NCBI GenBank assembly: GCA_943788055.1
Contig: CALSOU010000004.1
Span: forward strand, 186,001-250,000
Source of the DNA: an uncultured Saprospiraceae bacterium
GTDB lineage: Bacteria; Bacteroidota; Bacteroidia; Chitinophagales; Saprospiraceae
DNA: 64,000 bases
Direction of reading: 5' to 3'
The notes beneath the pieces were generated by a model. The model was given only the letters and a program-made list of their open reading frames with translations, was not told the DNA's origin and searched no databases. The stretch's first letter is position 1. Every line of letters begins with the position of its first letter. This document shows, in pieces, positions 16,845-30,093 of this stretch. The position numbers were made by a program, and so were the translations under genes.

Positions 16845-17864
16845 TTAAGCTTCGTTTTTAGAACGTAACATATCTAATGCCACATCGACGATCATATCTT
16901 CTTGTCCTCCGACCATATTTCGTTTACCTAGTTCTTCTAGAATTTCTCGAGTATCAAGGCCATATTTTTGAGCTGCTCGTTCGGAATGGAGTAGAAAACT
17001 TGAATAAACACCTGCGTAACCCAAGGATAATGTTTCACGATCTACTCTAACTGGTCTAAGCTGGAGTGGCCGAATAAGGTCATCAGCAGCGTCCATTAAT
17101 TGATAAACATCCGAATTGTGGGAAATATGCATTTTGTTGAGCACAGCAACTAGTACTTCCAATGGGGCATTTCCAGCACCGGCTCCCATTCCTGCCAATG
17201 ATGCATCGAGACGATTTGCTCCATGTTGCATAGCCACGATAGTATTTGCAACTCCTAGTGATAAATTGTGATGGCAATGGATTCCTATTTCAGTTTCAGG
17301 TTTCAGAATATCTTTGAATGCTTTGATTCTGTCTGCTACTCCATCCATCAGAAGAGCTCCAGCTGAATCAGTTACATAGATGCAATCAGCACCTGCATCT
17401 TCCATGATTTTTGCTTGTTGCGCTAGCTTTACAGGCTTATTCATATGTGACATCATTAAAAAGCCACCTACGTCCATACCAAGTTTTTTCGCTGCTTCTA
17501 TATGCTGAGGAGCAATATCTGCTTCTGTACAGTGTGTTGCGATACGCACGGACTCAACTCCTAGATCACGCGCTTTTTTGAGATCGTGAATGGTAGCAAT
17601 TCCAGGTAGGACGAGTGTTGTTAACTTTGCATGTTGCAGTTGATCTTTCATTCCTTCCAACCATTCCCAGTCTGTGTGTGCTCCAAAGCCATAATTGAAA
17701 CTTCCGCCAGCAAGTCCGTCTCCATGAGATATTTCAATAGCATCAACTTTTGCTTTATCTAGGGCTAGTGCGATAGATTGAATTTGCTCTTTTGAATATT
17801 GATGTCTAATAGCGTGCATTCCATCACGAAGCGTTACATCTTGAATATATATTTTATGATTCAT
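16845..17864 (-). CDS. mhpE: 4-hydroxy-2-oxovalerate aldolase (MhpE/BphI/DmpG family)
   Basis: Class II pyruvate aldolase that splits 4-hydroxy-2-oxopentanoate into pyruvate and acetaldehyde, normally the penultimate step of meta-cleavage pathways. The 339-residue TIM-barrel product begins with the metal/base motif [13 protein letters not shown] (residues 9-21), has [14 protein letters not shown] after strand 2, and keeps the HCHHN metal-binding cluster near residue 200. The C-terminal domain (about 275-339) matches the part that docks onto the dehydrogenase. The partner mhpF-type gene ends 20 bases upstream on the same strand, so an aldolase-dehydrogenase channelling complex is likely. No other meta-cleavage genes are in the window, so the physiological substrate is uncertain. 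Confidence 0.92.
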
Positions 17865-17884
17865 CTTGAATTCTTGTGGTCTGA

Positions 17885-18814
17885 TTATACTGATTGTTGT
17901 GCAATAACTTGTTCTGCAGTAGCTCTTGCTGCTGATGTCATGATATCGAGATTTCCTGCATAGGCTGGAAGGTAATGACCGGCTCCTTCTACTTTGAGTA
18001 ATACTGTAGTTTTCAAGCCATGACAGTGGCCTAATCCTTCTATAAATACTGGGTTGGATTCGGGGATTTCTTCAAATTGCACTTCTTGATGTAATTCATA
18101 TCCTGGCACATAGGCTTTCACGTCTTCAACCATTTTATGTATACTTTCTCGAATGGCCTCTTGATCTGCTGATTCAGAAAGCGTAAACACGGTATCTCTC
18201 ATGACGAGAGGTGGTTCTGCTGGATTGAGTACTATGATTGCTTTTCCTCTTGTAGCACCTCCTACATCTTCAATTGCCTTGGATGTCGTTTCTGTAAATT
18301 CGTCAATATTGGCTCGAGTTCCTGGCCCTGCTGATTTACTTGCGATGGAAGCAACGATTTCACCATAGTGTACTTTTGTAACTTGATTGACTGCAGCTAC
18401 GATGGGAATGGTTGCTTGTCCTCCACATGTGACCATGTTGAGATTTGAAACATCAAGGTGTTCGTTTAGATTGACAGTAGGCACTAGATATGGACCTATA
18501 GCAGCTGGAGTAAGATCAATCATCTTTTTGTCGGGAAAGGCTTGAATTTTATCCCAATTGTATTGATGAGCACGAGCTGAGGTGGCATCAAAAATGATTT
18601 TTATTTCCTTCCATTCGGGCATTTTGATTAGTCCATCTACACCAGTGTGGCAGGTATCGATTTCCATCCTCCTTGCACGAGCTAAACCATCTGATTCAGG
18701 ATCTATTCCTACGAGTACTGCTACTTCTAAAGTTTCTGAAAGGCGAATGATTTTGATCATTAGGTCGGTACCAATATTTCCAGATCCTATGATAGCACAC
18801 TTGGTTTTACTCAT
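17885..18814 (-). CDS. mhpF: Acetaldehyde dehydrogenase (acylating), MhpF/BphJ family
   Basis: Converts acetaldehyde, CoA and NAD+ to acetyl-CoA. The 309-residue product has the Rossmann motif [13 protein letters not shown] (residues 6-18) and the catalytic cysteine C130 in [14 protein letters not shown]. The segment [23 protein letters not shown] also matches the family. It is the first gene of a two-gene minus-strand operon with the aldolase, and the two enzymes are known to form a complex that channels acetaldehyde. The family assignment is firm; the pathway served here is not evident. Confidence 0.93.
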
Positions 18815-18916: not shown

Positions 18917-19684
18917 CTATTCAGCTTTCATTTTATTCCCTACAAATTCTAGTTCGGTTTGTAGTGCATCTATTTTTTCTAGCAGGCCATTTTGGAAGTG
19001 CCTTTCAGAGCTGTCTTGTACTGTAATAGCTGCTACAAATTCCCAGATTTCAAGGATTTCTTTTCCTTCGATAGTGAAGTCTCGATAACGCGGATTATCT
19101 GATTGTAGATGTAGTTCTCGGTTCTCTATTTTGAAGATTCTTTTGAAGACGATTCCTTCATCTCGTGAAACGATTATGTACCGACTTCCGGGCTTGATTT
19201 CATTAATTGTTGCGATATACTTGCCGATAATGTACGAACCGTCAATAATGGGAGGCATGGAATCTCCATTTACGGGAAAAGCTCTACAGTTTTGGATGTT
19301 GGGAAGGAAGGGTAGAGATAGGTGTTCTAGTTGTTCTATGTATTCAGGATCACTGTAATTACCAAGGTATCCTGCGCTGGCATCTTGTGGAACAATTTCG
19401 ATTTTTTGGTCGCCTTGTGTGTCTACCTGAATTGGTAGGACGATTTTATTTTGATTTTGTAGCTGAGTGACGTCGACTTTTGATAGGTCAATGGTCAAAA
19501 GCATATCAATAGTCAGATGGAAATATCTTGACATTCTCAACAGAACTTCTATTCCTGGATCATGCAGCCCTTTTTCGTATTTGGCAAGATTGGATCTGCT
19601 TATGAGGATCTTTTCAGCGAGACTCTGCTGGGATAGTTTTTGAGCAGTTCGAAGATGCTTGAGGTTTGAAGCTAAATAAATCAT
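18917..19684 (-). CDS. XRE-S24 self-cleaving repressor, LexA-like
   Basis: Likely SOS-type transcriptional repressor. Residues about 5-62 form an XRE helix-turn-helix (LKHLRTAQKLSQQSLAEK ... SRSNLAKYEKG). Residues about 98-215 are a peptidase S24 domain with an Ala-Gly scissile pair at 104-105 (DASAGYLG), the nucleophile Ser142 in NGDSMPP and the general-base Lys181 in IVFKRIF. All three elements needed for RecA-stimulated autocleavage are thus present. It is divergent from the Pol IV/DnaE pair across a 91-base gap that holds an inverted repeat, so it probably controls them and itself. Its DNA-binding domain is XRE and not the winged helix of classical LexA, so the name lexA is avoided. Confidence 0.88.
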   Translation of the reverse strand: MIYLASNLKHLRTAQKLSQQSLAEKILISRSNLAKYEKGLHDPGIEVLLRMSRYFHLTIDMLLTIDLSKVDVTQLQNQNKIVLPIQVDTQGDQKIEIVPQDASAGYLGNYSDPEYIEQLEHLSLPFLPNIQNCRAFPVNGDSMPPIIDGSYIIGKYIATINEIKPGSRYIIVSRDEGIVFKRIFKIENRELHLQSDNPRYRDFTIEGKEILEIWEFVAAITVQDSSERHFQNGLLEKIDALQTELEFVGNKMKAE

Positions 19685-19691
19685 TGTTCGT

Positions 19692-19728
19692 ATTTGTCAC
19701 ACAAAATAATATAATTATTGGGACAAAT
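19692..19728. promoter_or_regulatory. Inverted repeat in the repressor/polymerase divergent gap, candidate operator
   Basis: ATTTGTC (19692-19698) and GACAAAT (19722-19728) are perfect complements 23 bases apart, with an AT palindrome (AATAAT, ATA, ATTATT) between them. The site sits 8 bases upstream of the repressor start and 47 bases before the polymerase start, so a bound dimer could shut off both directions. Function is inferred from position and symmetry. Confidence 0.45.
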
Positions 19729-19775
19729 GTACGCAATTTTGAATTTCATTCCTAAATTTTTTTTAAAAATTTCAC

Positions 19776-21032
19776 ATGGATAAAGCAGTCGTCCACTTAG
19801 ATCTTGATACGTTTTTCGTTTCTTGTCAGAGGCTTGTAGATTCTTCATTGATTGGTATTCCTTTGATTATAGGGGGAAGTAGCAATCGAGGAGTTGTTTC
19901 TTGTGCCTCGATGGAAGCGCGGAAGTTTGGCGTGCGATCGGGCATGCCCCAGTACCTTGCAAATAAGCTTTGCCCACAAGCAAAAGTTATTCGAGGAGAC
20001 TTTGAATTATATACGAAGTGTTCCGATTTAGTTACAGATATAATACAGGAGAGTTCACCATTGATGGAGAAATCTTCTATTGATGAGTTTTACTTGGACA
20101 TTACAGGACTTGATAAATATTTTGGTTGTTATAAATGGAGTACAGAATTGCGACAACGTATCATAAAAGAGTCTGGACTTCCGATTTCTTTTGGATTATC
20201 TGTTAATAAGACGGTTTCCAAAATGGCGACTAATGAAGGGAAGCCATTGGGCGCGTTGAAGATTGAAGCGCCTGAGATTCATTCGTTTATGAACCCACTC
20301 TCAGTTAAAAGACTTCCAGGTATCGGTAATAGCACTTTTCAGACGCTTTCTCGAATAGGCATTCGCAAGATAGGTACGCTTGCGGAGGTACCTATGGAGG
20401 TGATGGGTAAATTGCTAGGGAAGAGTGGAATGACGATTTCACAACGAGCGAAAGGTATCGACCATACACCTGTAAAGCCCTATAGTAAGCGCAAGAGTCT
20501 TTCGAAGGAGCGGACTTTCCAACAAGACACGATCGATAAAGGATATCTAAGGACTTTATTGACTGGAATGGTAGAGGATTTATGCTTTAAATTACGTTCG
20601 GATAATTGGTTGACATCCAATATTTCTGTCAAGATTAAGTACACCAATTTTGATACGGAGAGTAAGCAGTATTCTATCAATTACACATCCTGTGATTTTA
20701 CACTCATGCGCTTGGCCTTTGAGTTACTCGAGTCTGTATATCAACGACGTATGAGAATACGATTGATCGGGGTCTCTTTCAATAAGTTGGTAAAAGGGCG
20801 TCATCAGATAGACATGTTTGAAGATACAGAGGAAAAGCTTGCCTTGTATAATACGATGGATCGTATCAAAACACGATTTCATAAAGGTGCAATACAATGG
20901 GGGACAGGATTTATGAGCAAGCAGAAAGAGGAAAAGGATGATAGCGAGATTAAGCCAGCACAAGATATCTTATTCCCGAGTAATCGACATCTGTATGAAT
21001 CGGTAGGTGGTGACCAAAAATATCATAGATAG
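19776..21032 (+). CDS. dinB: Y-family DNA polymerase (Pol IV/DinB-ImuB-like)
   Basis: Translesion polymerase. The 418 residues include the palm motif HLDLDTFFVSC (Asp9 and Asp11), the catalytic SSIDEFYLD motif with Asp103-Glu104, the helix-hairpin-helix KRLPGIGNSTFQTLSRIGI (about 178-196) and a little-finger domain. QIDMF at 344-348 resembles a beta-clamp-binding motif. The metal-binding acidic residues are intact, so this is an active polymerase, unlike true ImuB proteins. Its stop codon abuts the start of the following dnaE-like gene with no gap, so the two are co-translated, and it lies divergent from an S24 repressor. Confidence 0.93.
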   Translation: MDKAVVHLDLDTFFVSCQRLVDSSLIGIPLIIGGSSNRGVVSCASMEARKFGVRSGMPQYLANKLCPQAKVIRGDFELYTKCSDLVTDIIQESSPLMEKSSIDEFYLDITGLDKYFGCYKWSTELRQRIIKESGLPISFGLSVNKTVSKMATNEGKPLGALKIEAPEIHSFMNPLSVKRLPGIGNSTFQTLSRIGIRKIGTLAEVPMEVMGKLLGKSGMTISQRAKGIDHTPVKPYSKRKSLSKERTFQQDTIDKGYLRTLLTGMVEDLCFKLRSDNWLTSNISVKIKYTNFDTESKQYSINYTSCDFTLMRLAFELLESVYQRRMRIRLIGVSFNKLVKGRHQIDMFEDTEEKLALYNTMDRIKTRFHKGAIQWGTGFMSKQKEEKDDSEIKPAQDILFPSNRHLYESVGGDQKYHR

Positions 21033-24000
21033 ATGTATCTAAATTGTCACACACAATACTCGTTAAGATATGGCACGATATCTATTAGTGAGTTAGTACA
21101 GCAAGCAAAACGAGCTGATATAAATGCATTAGCCATTACAGATATTAACAACACAACAGGCGTTTATGATTTTATACAAGACTGTAGAGAAGTAGATATA
21201 AAACCGATTGTAGGAATTGATTTTAGAACTGGGAATCATCAGCATTTTGTAGCATTGGCTAAGAATAGAGAAGGCTTTCGCCAAATGAATGAATACTTGA
21301 GTTCTATTCATATTTCGGGAGTAAAGTTAGGAGAAAGGGCACCTGAATGGAATGATTGTATAGTGATATATCCTTTTGGGCTCGAGCCCAAAAATCTAAG
21401 AACGTATGAATATGTGGGAGTAGAAATATCACAGCTCAATAAATTAAAGATGAGCAAATGGCATACTCAGCAGGATCGAGTAGTCATCCATCATCCAATT
21501 ACATATAGTACAAAAGCAGAATACCAATTGCACGGGGTCTTAAGAGCAATAGATAAGAATATCTTGCTATCCGATCTCAAGAAGGAGGATCTTGCATCAC
21601 GAGCGGAGTACTTAATGAGTAGGTCTGAACTACTAGAAGAATACGAAGATTTTCCAGAAGTCATCAAGACAACAAAGGACATTATCGAGCAATGTAATTT
21701 TACATTTGATTTCAAGACTCCCAAGAATAAAAAGACTTATACGAATTCTAGATATAACGATAAAGTATTGCTGACAAAGCTTGCATTAGAGGGTATGCAG
21801 CGACGCTATGGTAGAAATAATGAGTACGCTAAGAAACGTATACTACATGAAATTGATATCATTGATAAGCTCGAATTTTCGGGTTACTTCCTGATTACAT
21901 GGGATATAGTGAAGTATAGCATGACATCGGGGCATTACCATGTTGGTAGGGGAAGTGGTGCAAATAGTATCGTTGCGTATTGTCTCAATATTACCAACAT
22001 ATGTCCACTGGATCTGAATCTATATTTTGAGCGATTTCTGAATCCTGAACGAAAGACACCACCTGATTTTGATATAGATTGGTCATGGCAAGATCGAGAT
22101 AACATTCTACAGTATATTTTCACAAGATTTGATAGTGATCGCGTAGCTTTTGTATCAGCGATAGGAACCTTTAAGCATAGAAGTACTTTTCGTGAGATTG
22201 GTAAGGCTTATGGTCTTGCCAAAGAAGAGATTGATGGATTGACTAAAACCCATTATTCGACACATCGAATGAATTCAGTAGTCAAAAAAGTACATAAATA
22301 TGCTAAGATGTTGGCGGGATTTCCAAATCAGCGTTCCTTACACGCTTGTGGGGTGATCGTTTCCGAAGAGCCGCTGACTTATTACGGTGCATTGGATATG
22401 CCACCAAAAGGATTTCAGACGATACAGTTTGACATGTATGTTGCAGAAGAAATAGGATTTGAGAAGCTAGATATATTGTCTCAGCGGGGAATAGGCCATA
22501 TCAATGACGCAGTGGAGATAGTAAAAGAGAATCGAGATATTGATATAGATATTGAAGATTTCTCGATTATGAAAGAGGATATATCCGTAAATACGAATCT
22601 TGCAAAAGGAAAAACACTAGGTTGTTTTTATATAGAATCTCCGGCAATGCGTGGATTACTAAGAAGGTTACGGTGTAATAACTATTATACACTAGTCGCA
22701 GCGTCTTCGATTATCAGACCAGGAGTAGCTAAATCAGGAATGATGCGTGAATATGTTTTTCGGCATAATCATCCAGATCAGTTTGAGTATTTTCACGAAG
22801 TTTTTGAGGAACAGTTGAGCGATACCTATGGAGTTATGGTGTATCAAGAAGATGTAATGAAGATAGCCCATGCATTTGCAGGTCTTGATCTATCTCATGC
22901 TGATATATTACGAAGAGGTATGTCTGGAAAGTCAAGATCAAAGAAAGAATTTCTACGCGTAAAAGAAAGCTATTTTGCCAATTGCAAAGCGAAGGGTTAT
23001 CCTGATAAACTGACTAACGAAGTGTATCGCCAGATCGAATCATTTGCTGGATATTCTTTTTGTAAAGCGCATTCAGCATCATATTCGGTGGAAAGCTATC
23101 AGAGTCTTTATCTCAAGACTTATTATCCTATTGAATTTATGGTTGCAGTCATCAATAACTTTGGTGGGTTCTATCGAACAGAAGTTTATATTCATGAGGC
23201 TAGAATGGCTGGAGCAGAGATTCAGACACCATGTGTTAACACCAGTGATAAACTTACTTGTGTAAAAGGCAAAGTTGTATATCTAGGATTTATTCACTTA
23301 AATAATGTTGATAATGAAGTTCAAAAAAGTATTGTTGAAGAACGAGAAAGAAATGGACTATATCTGAATCTCGTAGATTTTATAGAACGAGTGACGATTG
23401 GTATAGAAACGCTTCAAGTTTTAATTTATGCAGGTGCATTTAGGTTTACTGGCAAACCCAAAAGTGAATTAGTCATTGAGGCTAGGATGATACTAGTTAA
23501 TTATAAGCCGGTGACAACTAGCCCACGATTGTTCAAGACGCCATCTGTTGATTATAAGTTACCAGAATTGGAACACAGTTATCTTGAAGATGCATATGAC
23601 GAATTGGAAATATTTGGATTCCCAGTGAGTTGTTCTCCATTTGAATTATTGGAGACAAGCTATAGAGGGTCAGTTATGGCTTCGGCTCTAGAGAAGTATA
23701 AGGGGAATATGGTTAAGATGGTTGCATATCTGATAAGTAGGAAGAATGTACCAACAGTCAAGGGAAATATGAATTTTGGGACTTGGATAGATGCAGAGGG
23801 TAATTATTTTGATTCGACACATTTTCCTAGAAAGTTGATTGAATATCCTTTTGAAGGAGGAGGATGTTATTTATTATTAGGAAAGGTTGACGTTGATTAT
23901 TCGTTTCCATCCGTAGTTATTGAGAAGATGGCTAGGTTGGCGTTCAAACCAGATCCTCGTTATGTAGATGATGAGAAGAAGAAGTTTGATCAACGCACAC

Positions 24001-24086
24001 GATTCAAGGAAGATTACAGTGGAACACAGCGAAAGCCATATCCATCGGAACAGGCGATAGGCTTACCGAGAGGGAAGATGGAGTGA
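21033..24086 (+). CDS. DnaE-type DNA polymerase III alpha subunit, SOS-cassette paralogue
   Basis: C-family polymerase, probably an error-prone second alpha subunit and not the main replicase. The 1017-residue product is shorter than typical replicative DnaE (about 1160). The N-terminal PHP domain is degenerate: the usual HxH is NCH (residues 4-6) and the usual DHGN is DINN, so its metal site is unlikely to work. The palm keeps PDFDID with Asp345 and Asp347, plus GRGSGANSIVAYCL just before it. The finger region SYSVESYQSLYLKTYYPIEFM is conserved. A helix-hairpin-helix-like segment, NLVDFIERVTIGIETLQVLIYAGAF, is near residue 785. It starts immediately after the Pol IV stop. Equivalent to DnaE2 of imuAB-dnaE2 systems by inference. 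Confidence 0.9.
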   Translation: MYLNCHTQYSLRYGTISISELVQQAKRADINALAITDINNTTGVYDFIQDCREVDIKPIVGIDFRTGNHQHFVALAKNREGFRQMNEYLSSIHISGVKLGERAPEWNDCIVIYPFGLEPKNLRTYEYVGVEISQLNKLKMSKWHTQQDRVVIHHPITYSTKAEYQLHGVLRAIDKNILLSDLKKEDLASRAEYLMSRSELLEEYEDFPEVIKTTKDIIEQCNFTFDFKTPKNKKTYTNSRYNDKVLLTKLALEGMQRRYGRNNEYAKKRILHEIDIIDKLEFSGYFLITWDIVKYSMTSGHYHVGRGSGANSIVAYCLNITNICPLDLNLYFERFLNPERKTPPDFDIDWSWQDRDNILQYIFTRFDSDRVAFVSAIGTFKHRSTFREIGKAYGLAKEEIDGLTKTHYSTHRMNSVVKKVHKYAKMLAGFPNQRSLHACGVIVSEEPLTYYGALDMPPKGFQTIQFDMYVAEEIGFEKLDILSQRGIGHINDAVEIVKENRDIDIDIEDFSIMKEDISVNTNLAKGKTLGCFYIESPAMRGLLRRLRCNNYYTLVAASSIIRPGVAKSGMMREYVFRHNHPDQFEYFHEVFEEQLSDTYGVMVYQEDVMKIAHAFAGLDLSHADILRRGMSGKSRSKKEFLRVKESYFANCKAKGYPDKLTNEVYRQIESFAGYSFCKAHSASYSVESYQSLYLKTYYPIEFMVAVINNFGGFYRTEVYIHEARMAGAEIQTPCVNTSDKLTCVKGKVVYLGFIHLNNVDNEVQKSIVEERERNGLYLNLVDFIERVTIGIETLQVLIYAGAFRFTGKPKSELVIEARMILVNYKPVTTSPRLFKTPSVDYKLPELEHSYLEDAYDELEIFGFPVSCSPFELLETSYRGSVMASALEKYKGNMVKMVAYLISRKNVPTVKGNMNFGTWIDAEGNYFDSTHFPRKLIEYPFEGGGCYLLLGKVDVDYSFPSVVIEKMARLAFKPDPRYVDDEKKKFDQRTRFKEDYSGTQRKPYPSEQAIGLPRGKME

Positions 24087-26166: not shown

Positions 26167-29100
26167 ATGAAGCACTTATTATTCTTGATGTTTTGCCTTT
26201 GGGTAGTAAGCTTCACTACTGCGGATGCTCAAAATTTATGTCCTAATCCCAATTTTGCTGAGTATAACTCATGTCCAGTAGATATTTCTGACTTTTCAGT
26301 TTCACAGTGGAATAATGTTGTTACAACAAGTGATTATTTTAATGTCTGCGCAACTGGAAATTCTGGAATTCCAAATAATCTTGTGGGATTTCAGAACTCA
26401 TTGTATGGAGATGGGTACGTTGGGTTAGTGATTTATGAACAAAACACAGGATGGAGAGAGTATGCGCAAGCAACCTTTAATGAACCTCTACTGCCAGGAT
26501 GTTATCAGATTTCTCTTTACTACAGTAATGCAGATTTTGCATCGCTAGCTAACGGACTGGGAGTCTATTTGTCAGAGGGAACACCTAATTCTTATGTAGG
26601 AGTAGAACCTCAAGTAGAGGTTGAAACAGCTATAGATAATTATGACGAATGGTTTGAAATCACGGCAGAATATAATACTGCTGGCGGAGAAACGCATGTA
26701 ACTTTTGGTAATTTTCGAACTGATACCGATACTGATTTCATGAGTCGAAGTGTAAGTTTTCCATCATTGTCATATGTATACATTGATTCAATTTCTGTTG
26801 AATATTCTGGGATTCCTGGTGCATTGGCTGTCGACTTGGGAGAGGATTTAACTTTATGTCCTGACGACTTCCCCTACACTATAGAGTCAGGTTTTTCTTC
26901 GGGAATTGTAAATTGGAACACAGGTGAAACTGGGAGCTCAATAGAAATAGATGGTCCAGGAGTTTATTCCGTAGAGGTCATTGATAATTGTGAGCAAGGA
27001 ATGGATGAGCTTGTAATATCGCTTTATGATGTACCGTCCGTTGACGTTGAGCCACAATTGGAGATATGCGAGGGAAGTTCGACATCTATAGATCTGGATG
27101 GAAGTTTGGGTGATTATACTTGGAGTGATGGGTCAGAAGGTCCGAGTATAATAATTGATGAAGCTGGTAGTTACACTGTTAGTTTAACTTATTTCTGTGG
27201 TGTGATTGAAGAAACATTTGATGTCATCCAAGTACCTTCAATTAATCTACCCGTAATTGAAGATATCGTAATATGTGAGAATGAGCTCCCCGTAGTAATT
27301 GATCTATCTGCATTTATTGATCCTTTTAACACGTTTAACTGGTCGGACGGATCCAATGGGGCAGGACTCATCGCGTTTGCAGAAGGAGAGTATGATGTTG
27401 AGGTTTTTAATTCTTGTTTTTCAGATATAGAGTCTTTTTCAATTGATATTGAACCTGAATTACCAGCATTTATTCCTTTTGCTGATGATACAGCTTGTGA
27501 GGGAGAACAGGTTGTCATTTTAGTGCCAATTGTTGAGTCAGAATATTTGTGGCAAGATGGCTCAACTGATCCATTCTTTTTAGCGGATGGTCCTGGAATT
27601 TATGAATTGACCATGTCAAATGCATGTGGGACAAATCAATACGACTTTGAGATAGTAGAACCACCTCTAGAGAGTTTAGATTTGGGTGCTGATATAAGTA
27701 TTTGTCCTGGAGATTCAGTCCTATTATCAGATGATCCACAACTTACATATGAGTGGAGTACAGGAGAGACTGAAACTAGTATTTGGGCTCCTGGAGCGGG
27801 GACATATATAGCAAGTTTACAAGGTGCTTGTGAAATAGTAAGTGACACGATTGTTATTACCGAAAATGGTTCTGCTCCGATGTTGACATTATTGGATACG
27901 ATCACTTTATGTGAAGGAGATTCGATTTACATAGAATCGACAGAACAAGCAGATGGAGTGATATTTGAATGGAATACAGGTTCTGATCTGTCAGGTATAT
28001 CGATAACGGAAGGTGGCGTATATTCAGTTCAGGCAAGTAATAGCTGTGGAGTGGCTGAAGACAGTATTATTGTACTGTTAGGTGAACCACGTCCTACGAT
28101 AAGCTTAATTGATCAAGATTCAATCTGTTTTGGAGAGACATTGTTGTATGAGATTGATTCAGAAGATACTGAAGTACTGTGGAATGACGGTAGTTCATTG
28201 GATAGTTTTGTTGTGGGAGCAGCAGGCACATACTGGGTAGAATTGACAAATGGATGTGGATCGACGAGAGATAGCTTTACGGTAACCGAGTTGCCCTTAC
28301 CTCAAAAGCCAGATGTGGGTGATGATGTCTCCATATGCCAAGGAGATAGTATTTTACTTTCAAGTTCTGTTTTGAATGACCAGAATACCTGGGCAAACGG
28401 CACACAAGGTATTTCTCAAATGGTTTACGAAACTGGAATATATATACTTGAAGGATCAAATATTTGTGGGAGTTTAAATGATACAATAGAGGTGTTTGAT
28501 TTGGGTCTTGGCCCAAATGTGGATTTAGGAGTAGATCAGCAGTTTTGTGCAGGCGATAGCGTTACGCTCATAGCGACAGGATTCTATGAAGAAGTTACTT
28601 GGAGTAGTGGAGAACAGACATCAGAAATTACAATTGATCAAGCAGGAACGTACATAGTGAACGTAAGTAATCAATGCGGAGTGGAGTCAGATACAGTGGT
28701 TGTAGAACAGACGCAAGAAGTCCCACAGGTCAGTCTAGGAGAGGATATGGTATTATGCTCTGGAGATAGCTTACTATTAAGTCCAGATAATACAAGTGGA
28801 ATAATAGAATGGTCGACTGGAGCTGATGAGAGTCAAATATGGGTGAGTGAAGGGGGATGGTATAGTGTAAGTCTGAGTAGTTCGTGCGGTATGTCAACTG
28901 ACAGTGTATGGATAGACGAAATTGCGGAAATTTCTAGTGTATATTTAGGACCAGATACGTTGATCTGTTTTGTCGATAATTGGGAATATGATCTAAACTT
29001 ACCAAACGACTTTGAAGGAGAAATACTGTGGAGTAACGGAACAACGGAAGAGACGGTTAGCTACTTTATCGCAGGTACTATATGGGTGAATATCAGTAAT

Positions 29101-30093
29101 TCATGTAGTACAGTTACAGATACAATACAGGTTGACTATATTCCTTCGATTGAAAGTTGGAGTTTGCCAGCTGATACCTTGCTTTGTGATGTAAATGGAT
29201 TTCTAGTAGGACCTGATGTAAATCATAGCGATGTAACTTATTTGTGGAATACGGATGATACTAGTCAAGAGATATTGGTCACTGAACCTGGCACTTACTC
29301 GCTAGAGATTTCAAATGAATGTGGAACGACATTCGATGGAATAAATGTTCTTTTGGGCGTAAGCCCGACTCCTTTTAGTTTTCCAGAAACAGATACCATA
29401 TGTAGCGGTGAAGAATTAATTTTGACTGAAGATCAAGGCGTAAGTTTTGACTATTTGTGGCAAGATGGAAGTGATGAAACGAGTTTCGAAATTTTGATGT
29501 CAGGTACATATAGTCTAAGTATTTCAAATGCTTGTGGACTTGAGATTTCAAATTCTACAATAGTGGTGCTTCCAAACGATGACTTTGAAATTGAAATAGA
29601 AGATGAATATGTTGATTGTGAAGGAGAAGAGATTTTAGTTGACATCGCACAGCAGATAGGATCTACAATCGAGTGGTTTGATGGGTCAACAGATTGGAGT
29701 AACAGCTTTATTGAAAGTGGCTTATACAGCTTGTCGCTTTTCAACGATTGTCGAGATACTTTAATTGACTTACTAGTCCGATTTGAAGACTGTGATCAAT
29801 CGATTGATATATACATTCCCAATACATTTACACCTGATGAAGACGGAGTCAATGATTTTTTTACCATATATCATCCCGATAACCGAGAAATTCTATCATC
29901 AAAAATCAGCATCTATAATCGCTGGGGCGAGCAGATGTTTTATTCTGAGGAAACCAACTTTCAGTGGTATGGGGATTTCAAAGGTAGGAGTGTTCAGAGT
30001 GGGGTTTATGTCTATATTTATGAGGTAGAGTTTATTGATGGAGAGGAAACCATAAGCCGCACAGAGATGGGAGATTTGACAGTATTAAGATAG
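26167..30093 (+). CDS. Giant secreted repeat protein with type B T9SS C-terminal domain
   Basis: A 1308-residue surface or secreted protein. A signal peptide spans about residues 1-22 (KHLLFLMFCLWVVSFTTADA). An N-terminal globular domain (about 23-215) starts LCPNPNFAEYNSCP, as in many Bacteroidota gliding-associated proteins. About twelve repeats of 75-90 residues follow, each with an L-C-x-G-D/E-S/E start, a central W-S/N-x-G-x-x motif, a G-x-Y/W-x-V turn and an N-x-C-G end. The last ~95 residues (IPNTFTPDEDGVNDFFTI ... NRWGEQMF ... GVYVYIYEV) are the gliding-motility type B T9SS sorting domain. Export by Sec and then T9SS is implied. The repeats resemble Ig/PKD-like adhesin modules; the ligand is unknown. 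Confidence 0.9.
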   Translation: MKHLLFLMFCLWVVSFTTADAQNLCPNPNFAEYNSCPVDISDFSVSQWNNVVTTSDYFNVCATGNSGIPNNLVGFQNSLYGDGYVGLVIYEQNTGWREYAQATFNEPLLPGCYQISLYYSNADFASLANGLGVYLSEGTPNSYVGVEPQVEVETAIDNYDEWFEITAEYNTAGGETHVTFGNFRTDTDTDFMSRSVSFPSLSYVYIDSISVEYSGIPGALAVDLGEDLTLCPDDFPYTIESGFSSGIVNWNTGETGSSIEIDGPGVYSVEVIDNCEQGMDELVISLYDVPSVDVEPQLEICEGSSTSIDLDGSLGDYTWSDGSEGPSIIIDEAGSYTVSLTYFCGVIEETFDVIQVPSINLPVIEDIVICENELPVVIDLSAFIDPFNTFNWSDGSNGAGLIAFAEGEYDVEVFNSCFSDIESFSIDIEPELPAFIPFADDTACEGEQVVILVPIVESEYLWQDGSTDPFFLADGPGIYELTMSNACGTNQYDFEIVEPPLESLDLGADISICPGDSVLLSDDPQLTYEWSTGETETSIWAPGAGTYIASLQGACEIVSDTIVITENGSAPMLTLLDTITLCEGDSIYIESTEQADGVIFEWNTGSDLSGISITEGGVYSVQASNSCGVAEDSIIVLLGEPRPTISLIDQDSICFGETLLYEIDSEDTEVLWNDGSSLDSFVVGAAGTYWVELTNGCGSTRDSFTVTELPLPQKPDVGDDVSICQGDSILLSSSVLNDQNTWANGTQGISQMVYETGIYILEGSNICGSLNDTIEVFDLGLGPNVDLGVDQQFCAGDSVTLIATGFYEEVTWSSGEQTSEITIDQAGTYIVNVSNQCGVESDTVVVEQTQEVPQVSLGEDMVLCSGDSLLLSPDNTSGIIEWSTGADESQIWVSEGGWYSVSLSSSCGMSTDSVWIDEIAEISSVYLGPDTLICFVDNWEYDLNLPNDFEGEILWSNGTTEETVSYFIAGTIWVNISNSCSTVTDTIQVDYIPSIESWSLPADTLLCDVNGFLVGPDVNHSDVTYLWNTDDTSQEILVTEPGTYSLEISNECGTTFDGINVLLGVSPTPFSFPETDTICSGEELILTEDQGVSFDYLWQDGSDETSFEILMSGTYSLSISNACGLEISNSTIVVLPNDDFEIEIEDEYVDCEGEEILVDIAQQIGSTIEWFDGSTDWSNSFIESGLYSLSLFNDCRDTLIDLLVRFEDCDQSIDIYIPNTFTPDEDGVNDFFTIYHPDNREILSSKISIYNRWGEQMFYSEETNFQWYGDFKGRSVQSGVYVYIYEVEFIDGEETISRTEMGDLTVLR

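Follow-up and report, generated by a model that had tools for sequence, protein, structure and literature searches.

A probable DNA-damage-inducible translesion cassette in a Saprospiraceae genome: an S24 repressor gene divergent from abutting PolY and DnaE-type polymerase genes

This analysis concerns a three-gene cassette of an uncultured Saprospiraceae bacterium, located in a 64,000-nucleotide stretch (the window) of contig CALSOU010000004.1, assembly GCA_943788055.1. The cassette is composed of a repressor gene (rep), a Y-family DNA polymerase gene (polY), and a DnaE-type polymerase gene (dnaE). It is probably a DNA-damage-inducible translesion cassette that combines a non-canonical LexA with a DnaE2B-PolY-RecA mutasome, a kind already published from Bacteroidetes. 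Because the repressor kind and the PolY/DnaE pair are both in the literature, the locus is a further example with a few lineage-specific details. The additions made here are a clamp-type motif present in 77 of 77 aligned PolYs, a candidate 17-bp operator pair, and three sampled genomes that carry both a PolY-DnaE pair of this sort and the imuA-imuB-dnaE2 type. Genes, domains, catalytic residues, motifs, conserved arrangement, and candidate operators are read directly from the window and its relatives.

Conserved arrangement of the cassette

The original prediction, made from the sequence alone, described a three-gene cassette at 18917-24086 with the repressor divergent from an abutting polymerase pair. 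The coordinates, strands, and domains all agree with that description (Table 1). The dnaE start codon ATG at 21033 comes immediately after the polY stop codon TAG (21030-21032), with 0 bp between the genes, and a gap of 91 bp separates rep from polY. The predicted absence of a spacer holds at this locus, but abutment varies among relatives.

A survey of gene order across Bacteroidota, proposed in the original prediction, bears out the arrangement. The related loci are the best 80 of 515 confirmed relatives. Since 47 of the 80 are titled Flavobacterium, the gene-order counts lean towards Flavobacterium. PolY lies directly upstream of DnaE in 77 of the 80 loci, and the three loci without a PolY match include two at contig ends. 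A divergent repressor relative is present within 2 kb in 60 of the 77 PolY-DnaE loci (7 on weak matches), and no repressor match was found in the remaining 17 (4 at contig ends). The polY-dnaE gap, overlaps included, is at most 6 bp in 51 of the 77, exactly 0 in 5, and at least 50 bp in 17; at locus L042 it was measured from the tblastn start.

Alignments were made from proteins above length limits and comprised 54 repressors, 77 PolYs, and 80 DnaEs, with the window protein included in each. Seven weak repressor matches, a PolY fragment (L057), and a broken DnaE (L042) were left out.

Two polymerases with intact active-site residues

PolY matches the Pfam families IMS (E=1.8e-40) and IMS_C (E=3.1e-23). 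The DNA polymerase IV (Pol IV) models of NCBIfam are listed for this protein, none of them reaching its cut-off. The catalytic Asp and Glu residues, which the original prediction had called intact, are D9, D103, and E104, and all three are conserved in 77 of 77 aligned PolYs. Conservation at this level implies selection on PolY catalysis.

A Qxx[LMI]F motif of the beta-clamp-binding type is found in every aligned PolY at the site of the window motif QIDMF. Directly after it, the PolY tail reads LALYNTMDRIKTRFHKGAIQWG, which by eye resembles the N-terminus of RecA, both that of the same genome (KALQLAVDKLDKTYGKGTIMKLG) and that of E. coli. A structural model with a mean predicted local distance difference test score (pLDDT) of 63 places a helix at residues 352-368, with low confidence. 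The DUF4113 domain is reported to be homologous to the RecA N-terminus, and RecA has been proposed as a stand-in for ImuA (PMC6511836). For the DnaE2B-PolY-RecA type, RecA is proposed to replace ImuA via a RecA-like motif in the PolY tail (PMC12926913).

The DnaE-type polymerase passes the cut-off of a single NCBIfam model, the superfamily model TIGR00594. The model for DNA polymerase III (Pol III) alpha, PRK05673, scores 583 bits and the error-prone model PRK05672 scores 492 bits, both below cut-off. The catalytic residues D347, D349, and D480 are conserved in 80 of 80 aligned DnaEs, and all 13 polymerases of a further alignment have Asp at the positions equivalent to E. coli D401, D403, and D555. 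An AlphaFold2 model (pLDDT 74) has DnaE-type Pol III alpha structures as its best matches.

The PHP domain of DnaE is shortened and carries N4, Y13, and I38 where the DnaE1 of the same genome has His, Asp, and His. These replacements are nearly invariant among 22 aligned cassette DnaEs, so intrinsic proofreading by DnaE appears unlikely. A degenerate PHP active site of this sort is usual in DnaE2s. The three positions are presumably metal-site positions, and this assignment agrees with the PHP motif quoted in PMC12926913. Bacteroidetes DnaE2s have shorter cores with reduced PHP and thumb domains (PMC3919608).

The 16 cassette DnaEs included in a tree of 27 C-family polymerases group in one clade (100/100), and the 8 canonical DnaE2s group in another (100/100). 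Five of these eight come from Bacteroidota imuA-imuB-dnaE2-like loci. The separate clades rule out DnaE as a canonical DnaE2 (ImuC). The tree is unrooted, was built without PolC or DnaE2B reference rows, and has long branches that, by the program's own warning, meet; it therefore separates cassette DnaE from canonical DnaE2 and does not bear on nearness to DnaE1 versus DnaE2.

A search for Qxx[LMIV][FL] found no such motif anywhere in the window DnaE. A control scan for Qxx[LMIV]F past residue 750 returned QADMF in E. coli DnaE and QLDLF in Aneurinibacillus DnaE, and none in the DnaE1 of the same genome or in 7 of 8 canonical DnaE2s.

Repressor and candidate operators

The repressor matches HTH_3 (E=2.8e-12, residues 8-60) and Peptidase_S24 (E=9.8e-11) of Pfam. 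The predicted Ala104-Gly105 cleavage pair, Ser142, and Lys181 are all present; A104, G105, S142, and K181 are conserved in 49, 54, 54, and 54 of the 54 aligned repressors, respectively. These features are shared with the non-canonical LexA described in PMC8565304, which also has a CI-like HTH_3 domain joined to S24, the Ala-Gly and Ser-Lys pairs, a position divergent from an error-prone polymerase gene, and candidate operators at its own promoter. The window gap differs, with two copies of TGNNNNNATTTRTCMCA instead of exact copies of the published motifs. In Elizabethkingia anophelis, a repressor of the same kind binds its own promoter, and mitomycin C induces both the repressor and the oppositely oriented error-prone polymerase gene (PMC8565304). 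The SOS-like reading of the cassette is supported by its sequence and by this published induction in a relative. The same paper reports that non-canonical LexA paralogues have diverged motifs; its main text contains no word starting with Saprospir or Haliscomenobacter.

The two copies of the 17-bp pattern TGNNNNNATTTRTCMCA in the 91-bp gap are inverted relative to each other. Genome-wide, the pattern is matched exactly three times, twice in the gap and once inside an open reading frame on contig 9; the last match was rejected as an operator and taken as chance. At locus L001, both 17-mer copies lie at the same places as in the window, with copy 2 exact and inverted. In Portibacter marinus (L002), TGTTCGTATTTATCACA occurs at both promoters, one near the repressor start and a looser copy on the polY side. 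L185 is apparently the same genome as L002 and was excluded as an independent locus. Several Flavobacterium loci have a palindrome such as TTACAATTTGTAA at the operator place, and other loci differ in sequence. The form of TTACAATTTGTAA matches TTAC-AAATT-GTAA, shown to be bound in Elizabethkingia (PMC8565304).

A perfect 4-N5-4 palindrome in the gap, TTTG-N5-CAAA, was rejected as the operator. Its 175 genomic occurrences per strand exceed the 110 of the reversed control, and it is not kept in L001. At the Portibacter marinus locus, 884 bp lie between the repressor and PolY (L002:3961-4844), leaving room for a small extra gene.

A second rep relative, 39% identical and with an S24 match, is encoded in the same genome (L123:6145-7011, minus strand). 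No polymerase gene was found among its neighbours in 13 kb, and no exact published motif lies upstream of it.

Table 1. Coordinates of the cassette genes, motifs, and candidate operators in the window
Feature	Position	Strand	Basis
XRE/CI-like helix-turn-helix (HTH) and S24 peptidase repressor (rep), non-canonical LexA kind, 255 aa	18917-19684	-	Pfam HTH_3, Peptidase_S24
Candidate operator copy 1, TGTTCGTATTTGTCACA, immediately 5' of the rep start codon	19685-19701	+	exact match to TGNNNNNATTTRTCMCA
Candidate operator copy 2, TGCGTACATTTGTCCCA, inverted, polY side	19719-19735	-	exact match to TGNNNNNATTTRTCMCA
Y-family DNA polymerase (polY), Bacteroidetes PolY2 kind, 418 aa	19776-21032	+	IMS, IMS_C; catalytic residues intact
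PolY residues 344-348, QIDMF, beta-clamp-binding-like motif	20805-20819	+	Qxx[LMI]F at the same site in 77/77
PolY residues 355-380, RecA-N-terminus-like (DUF4113) motif, candidate RecA docking site	20838-20915	+	DUF4113 match below cut-off
DnaE-type (C-family) polymerase, 1017 aa, Asp triad intact, PHP site degenerate	21033-24086	+	PHP, DNA_pol3_alpha, DNA_pol3_finger, HHH_6

The neighbours of the cassette in the window look chromosomal and include a ribosomal protein/rpoA cluster (named by eye), an aldolase, and a dehydrogenase. Genes for 4-hydroxy-2-oxovalerate aldolase and acetylating acetaldehyde dehydrogenase lie at 16845-18814 on the minus strand, between that cluster and rep. On the other side, a 1308-aa repeat-rich protein with a type IX secretion system (T9SS) type B sorting domain at its end is encoded at 26167-30093 on the plus strand.

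RecA and the search for ImuA and ImuB

The source genome is 3.0 Mb in 13 contigs and is 96.85% complete. Besides the cassette polymerases, it encodes one C-family polymerase (contig 9, taken as DnaE1) and one Y-family polymerase (contig 3, taken as DinB). It has one RecA and three S24 proteins. The three S24 frames, at 259-296 aa, are longer than E. coli UmuD, and the two outside the cassette start with an HTH-like stretch (by eye).

The original prediction that no ImuA/RecA-like gene is present in the cassette is confirmed. Across the whole genome, a single match was returned by Pfam RecA and another by the ImuA model NF033429, in both cases the one RecA gene, and no separate ImuA gene was found with these models. 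The cut-off of NF033429 itself says little, because none of 148 genomes of the phylum and none of 14 control genomes reached it. A second NF033429 match, in frames of 244-257 aa that score above the RecA match, occurs in 5 of the 148 (G139, G158, G181, G197, and G205). At these loci, a gene the size of imuA, one the size of imuB (~500 aa), and a DnaE2-like gene follow one another. For ImuB, the Pfam IMS matches in the source genome are limited to the window PolY and DinB, and no third C-family polymerase was found; no ImuB-specific model was used, and this negative is limited by the PolY blastp search having overlooked 5 of 5 Bacteroidota ImuBs.

Three of these genomes, G139, G181, and G197, carry an imuA-imuB-dnaE2-like locus (L218, L216, and L214, respectively) plus a window-like PolY-DnaE pair (L205, L206, and L199, respectively). 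The N-terminal parts of the L199, L205, and L206 DnaEs, the only parts compared, are 41-44% identical to the window DnaE. G158 has a PolY without DnaE in the stretch examined, and in G205 no PolY match reaches E <= 1e-60. DnaE2B members are described as occurring in genomes without ImuA or ImuB (PMC12926913). Given that restriction, G139, G181, and G197 would be exceptions if their DnaEs are DnaE2B.

Relation to published mutasomes

An active PolY2 + DnaE2 pair of Bacteroidetes was proposed as a two-polymerase mutasome in 2019 and was called unusual, as both polymerases look active (PMC6511836). In 2026 the pair was named DnaE2B-PolY-RecA and presented as predicted, not characterized (PMC12926913). 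AlphaFold complexes for representatives of all 11 module types in that work exceed its authors' thresholds, and the window cassette is taken to belong to one of these types. The two-polymerase mutasome of the original prediction fits this published kind but is not new. A search of the literature from 2019 on Flavobacterium, DNA polymerase IV, and SOS found no paper, and one on Elizabethkingia returned PMC8565304 alone.

The window cassette shares with DnaE2B-PolY-RecA an active Y-family polymerase, a clamp-type motif together with a weak RecA-N-terminus-like motif, an adjacent DnaE whose clade is apart from canonical DnaE2, and a genome in which no ImuA was found. No difference in composition was seen; the window copy adds a lineage-specific candidate operator and exact abutment.

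In the ImuA-ImuB-DnaE2 system (DnaE2A), too, a single operon controlled by a damage-responsive repressor encodes a Y-family protein and a DnaE-type polymerase. Its ImuB is an inactive hub in the canonical mutasome (PMC6511836). In contrast, the window Y-family protein is catalytically intact, ImuA is lacking, and DnaE lies outside the canonical DnaE2 clade. Both the sequence and published work on cassettes of this kind support the contrast with imuA-imuB-dnaE2 drawn in the original prediction. Pol V (UmuD'2C-RecA) likewise has a Y-family polymerase, and PolY is expected to take up RecA via a RecA-N-terminus-like tail in the same manner. Unlike Pol V, the window cassette has no UmuD gene and has a DnaE.

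Distribution among Bacteroidota

Of the 148 genomes in the phylum-wide sample, which includes the source genome, 47 have a PolY match at E <= 1e-60. This count is an upper bound, as weak matches (33-38% identity) may be other PolY groups. In the family of the window, 39 of 61 genomes (own included) have such a match. Among 29 same-family PolY loci from other genomes, a DnaE match is present in 9 and a repressor match in 11, within short flanks of ~1.5 kb. The same-genus genome G043 has a 54% identical PolY and a 39% identical repressor, with no DnaE within the locus stretch examined.

In Chryseobacterium shandongense, a mobilizable plasmid of 68.8 kb (NZ_CP033916.1) carries a complete cassette (L222:2004-7057). 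The cassette genes are annotated there as a LexA family transcriptional regulator, DNA polymerase IV, and DNA polymerase III subunit alpha. The patchy distribution and the plasmid copy suggest some exchange of the cassette. At two more distant PolY loci, L212 and L213, PolY is flanked on either side by DnaE-like open frames of opposite orientation.

Proposed mechanism and alternatives

The following account of how the cassette is repressed and released, how the complex forms, and how the two polymerases divide their work is inferred. At rest, the repressor would occupy the two operator copies in the 91-bp gap and silence both itself and polY-dnaE. RecA on single-stranded DNA would then trigger repressor self-cleavage at Ala104-Gly105 via Ser142/Lys181, and the abutting polY and dnaE would be co-translated after derepression. 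PolY may serve as the hub, QIDMF holding the sliding clamp and the RecA-like tail taking up a single RecA protomer, an arrangement that would replace the ImuA-ImuB pair. DnaE, whose PHP proofreading site is degenerate and which lacks a clear clamp motif, would join via PolY. Because both polymerases keep their active sites, PolY is likely to insert opposite the lesion and DnaE to carry out error-prone extension.

Several observations weigh against the reading of the cassette as a damage-inducible DnaE2B-PolY-RecA mutasome. The DUF4113 match of PolY is weak (E=0.081 for the whole protein, 0.016 for the tail alone), with scores of 13.4 and 15.7 bits against a Pfam cut-off of 24. The missing clamp motif of DnaE is weak evidence, because the DnaE1 of the genome and 7 of 8 canonical DnaE2s also score none; moreover, 16 of 80 cassette DnaEs have a loose clamp-motif match in residues 803-872. 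A DnaE match lies in the short flanks of only 9 of the 29 same-family PolY loci, so the pairing is not obligatory, although some of these loci are cut short. At <=1 mismatch, TGNNNNNATTTRTCMCA has 90 matches in the genome versus 53 for the reversed control. The weight of the operator rests on the relatives, because the pattern was derived from the very gap searched. None of the three published motifs, CTAA-N5-TTAG, GGA-N5-TCC, and TTAC-N5-GTAA, occurs exactly in that gap. Upstream of recA, dinB, two genes identified by eye as ssb and uvrA, and the two other S24 genes, there is likewise no exact match to these motifs or to the operator, and the 11-base half of the operator is absent there even at <=1 mismatch; these absences hint at a private regulon. 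No experiments on this genome were found in the literature searched.

A more specific version of the mechanism is offered as a tentative possibility. PolY would reach the clamp and RecA and pass the primer end to a DnaE that is tethered, lacks proofreading, and does not itself contact the clamp, i.e., a built-in inserter-extender relay of two active enzymes. The cassette would form a private regulon, with the 17-bp operator TGNNNNNATTTRTCMCA exactly at its own promoters. This relay is weakened by the finding that the scan returns no clamp motif in the genome's own DnaE1 either. The same finding makes the missing motif undiagnostic against a rather unlikely alternative, in which one repressor controls the induction of both polymerases yet each works on its own: PolY would be a Pol IV-like enzyme acting with RecA, and DnaE would fill gaps independently and with low fidelity. 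Separate work would suit the two intact active sites, the 20 of 29 same-family PolY loci without DnaE in their short flanks, and the PolY-RecA dimer without DnaE, which is the most abundant type in PMC12926913. The tight and frequent abutment of the genes (within 6 bp in 51 of 77) argues for joint work, as do the published complex models, which exceed the threshold for every module type (PMC12926913).

PolY could also be an ImuB in effect, a docking hub with an idle active site, leaving all synthesis to DnaE. Its clamp-type and RecA-like motifs would serve such a hub, and canonical ImuB is itself inactive and a hub (PMC6511836), but the retention of D9, D103, and E104 in every aligned PolY makes this improbable. 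Finally, the cassette could be a mobile-element accessory that serves plasmid or prophage spread rather than host repair. The whole copy on the Chryseobacterium plasmid points in this direction, as does the patchiness in the family, including the G043 locus with PolY and repressor and no DnaE in the stretch examined. The window copy, however, sits among chromosomal-type genes, and this explanation is considered very improbable.

Significance

Read as a translesion cassette of the published Bacteroidetes kind, the locus holds little that is new in kind. It is a compact test case in which one operon, lacking ImuA, holds two active translesion polymerases. Its regulation can be tested directly through the candidate operator. 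The main question worth an experiment is the split between the two active polymerases. Genomes that carry both the PolY-DnaE pair and imuA-imuB-dnaE2 would allow two mutasomes to be compared in one host.

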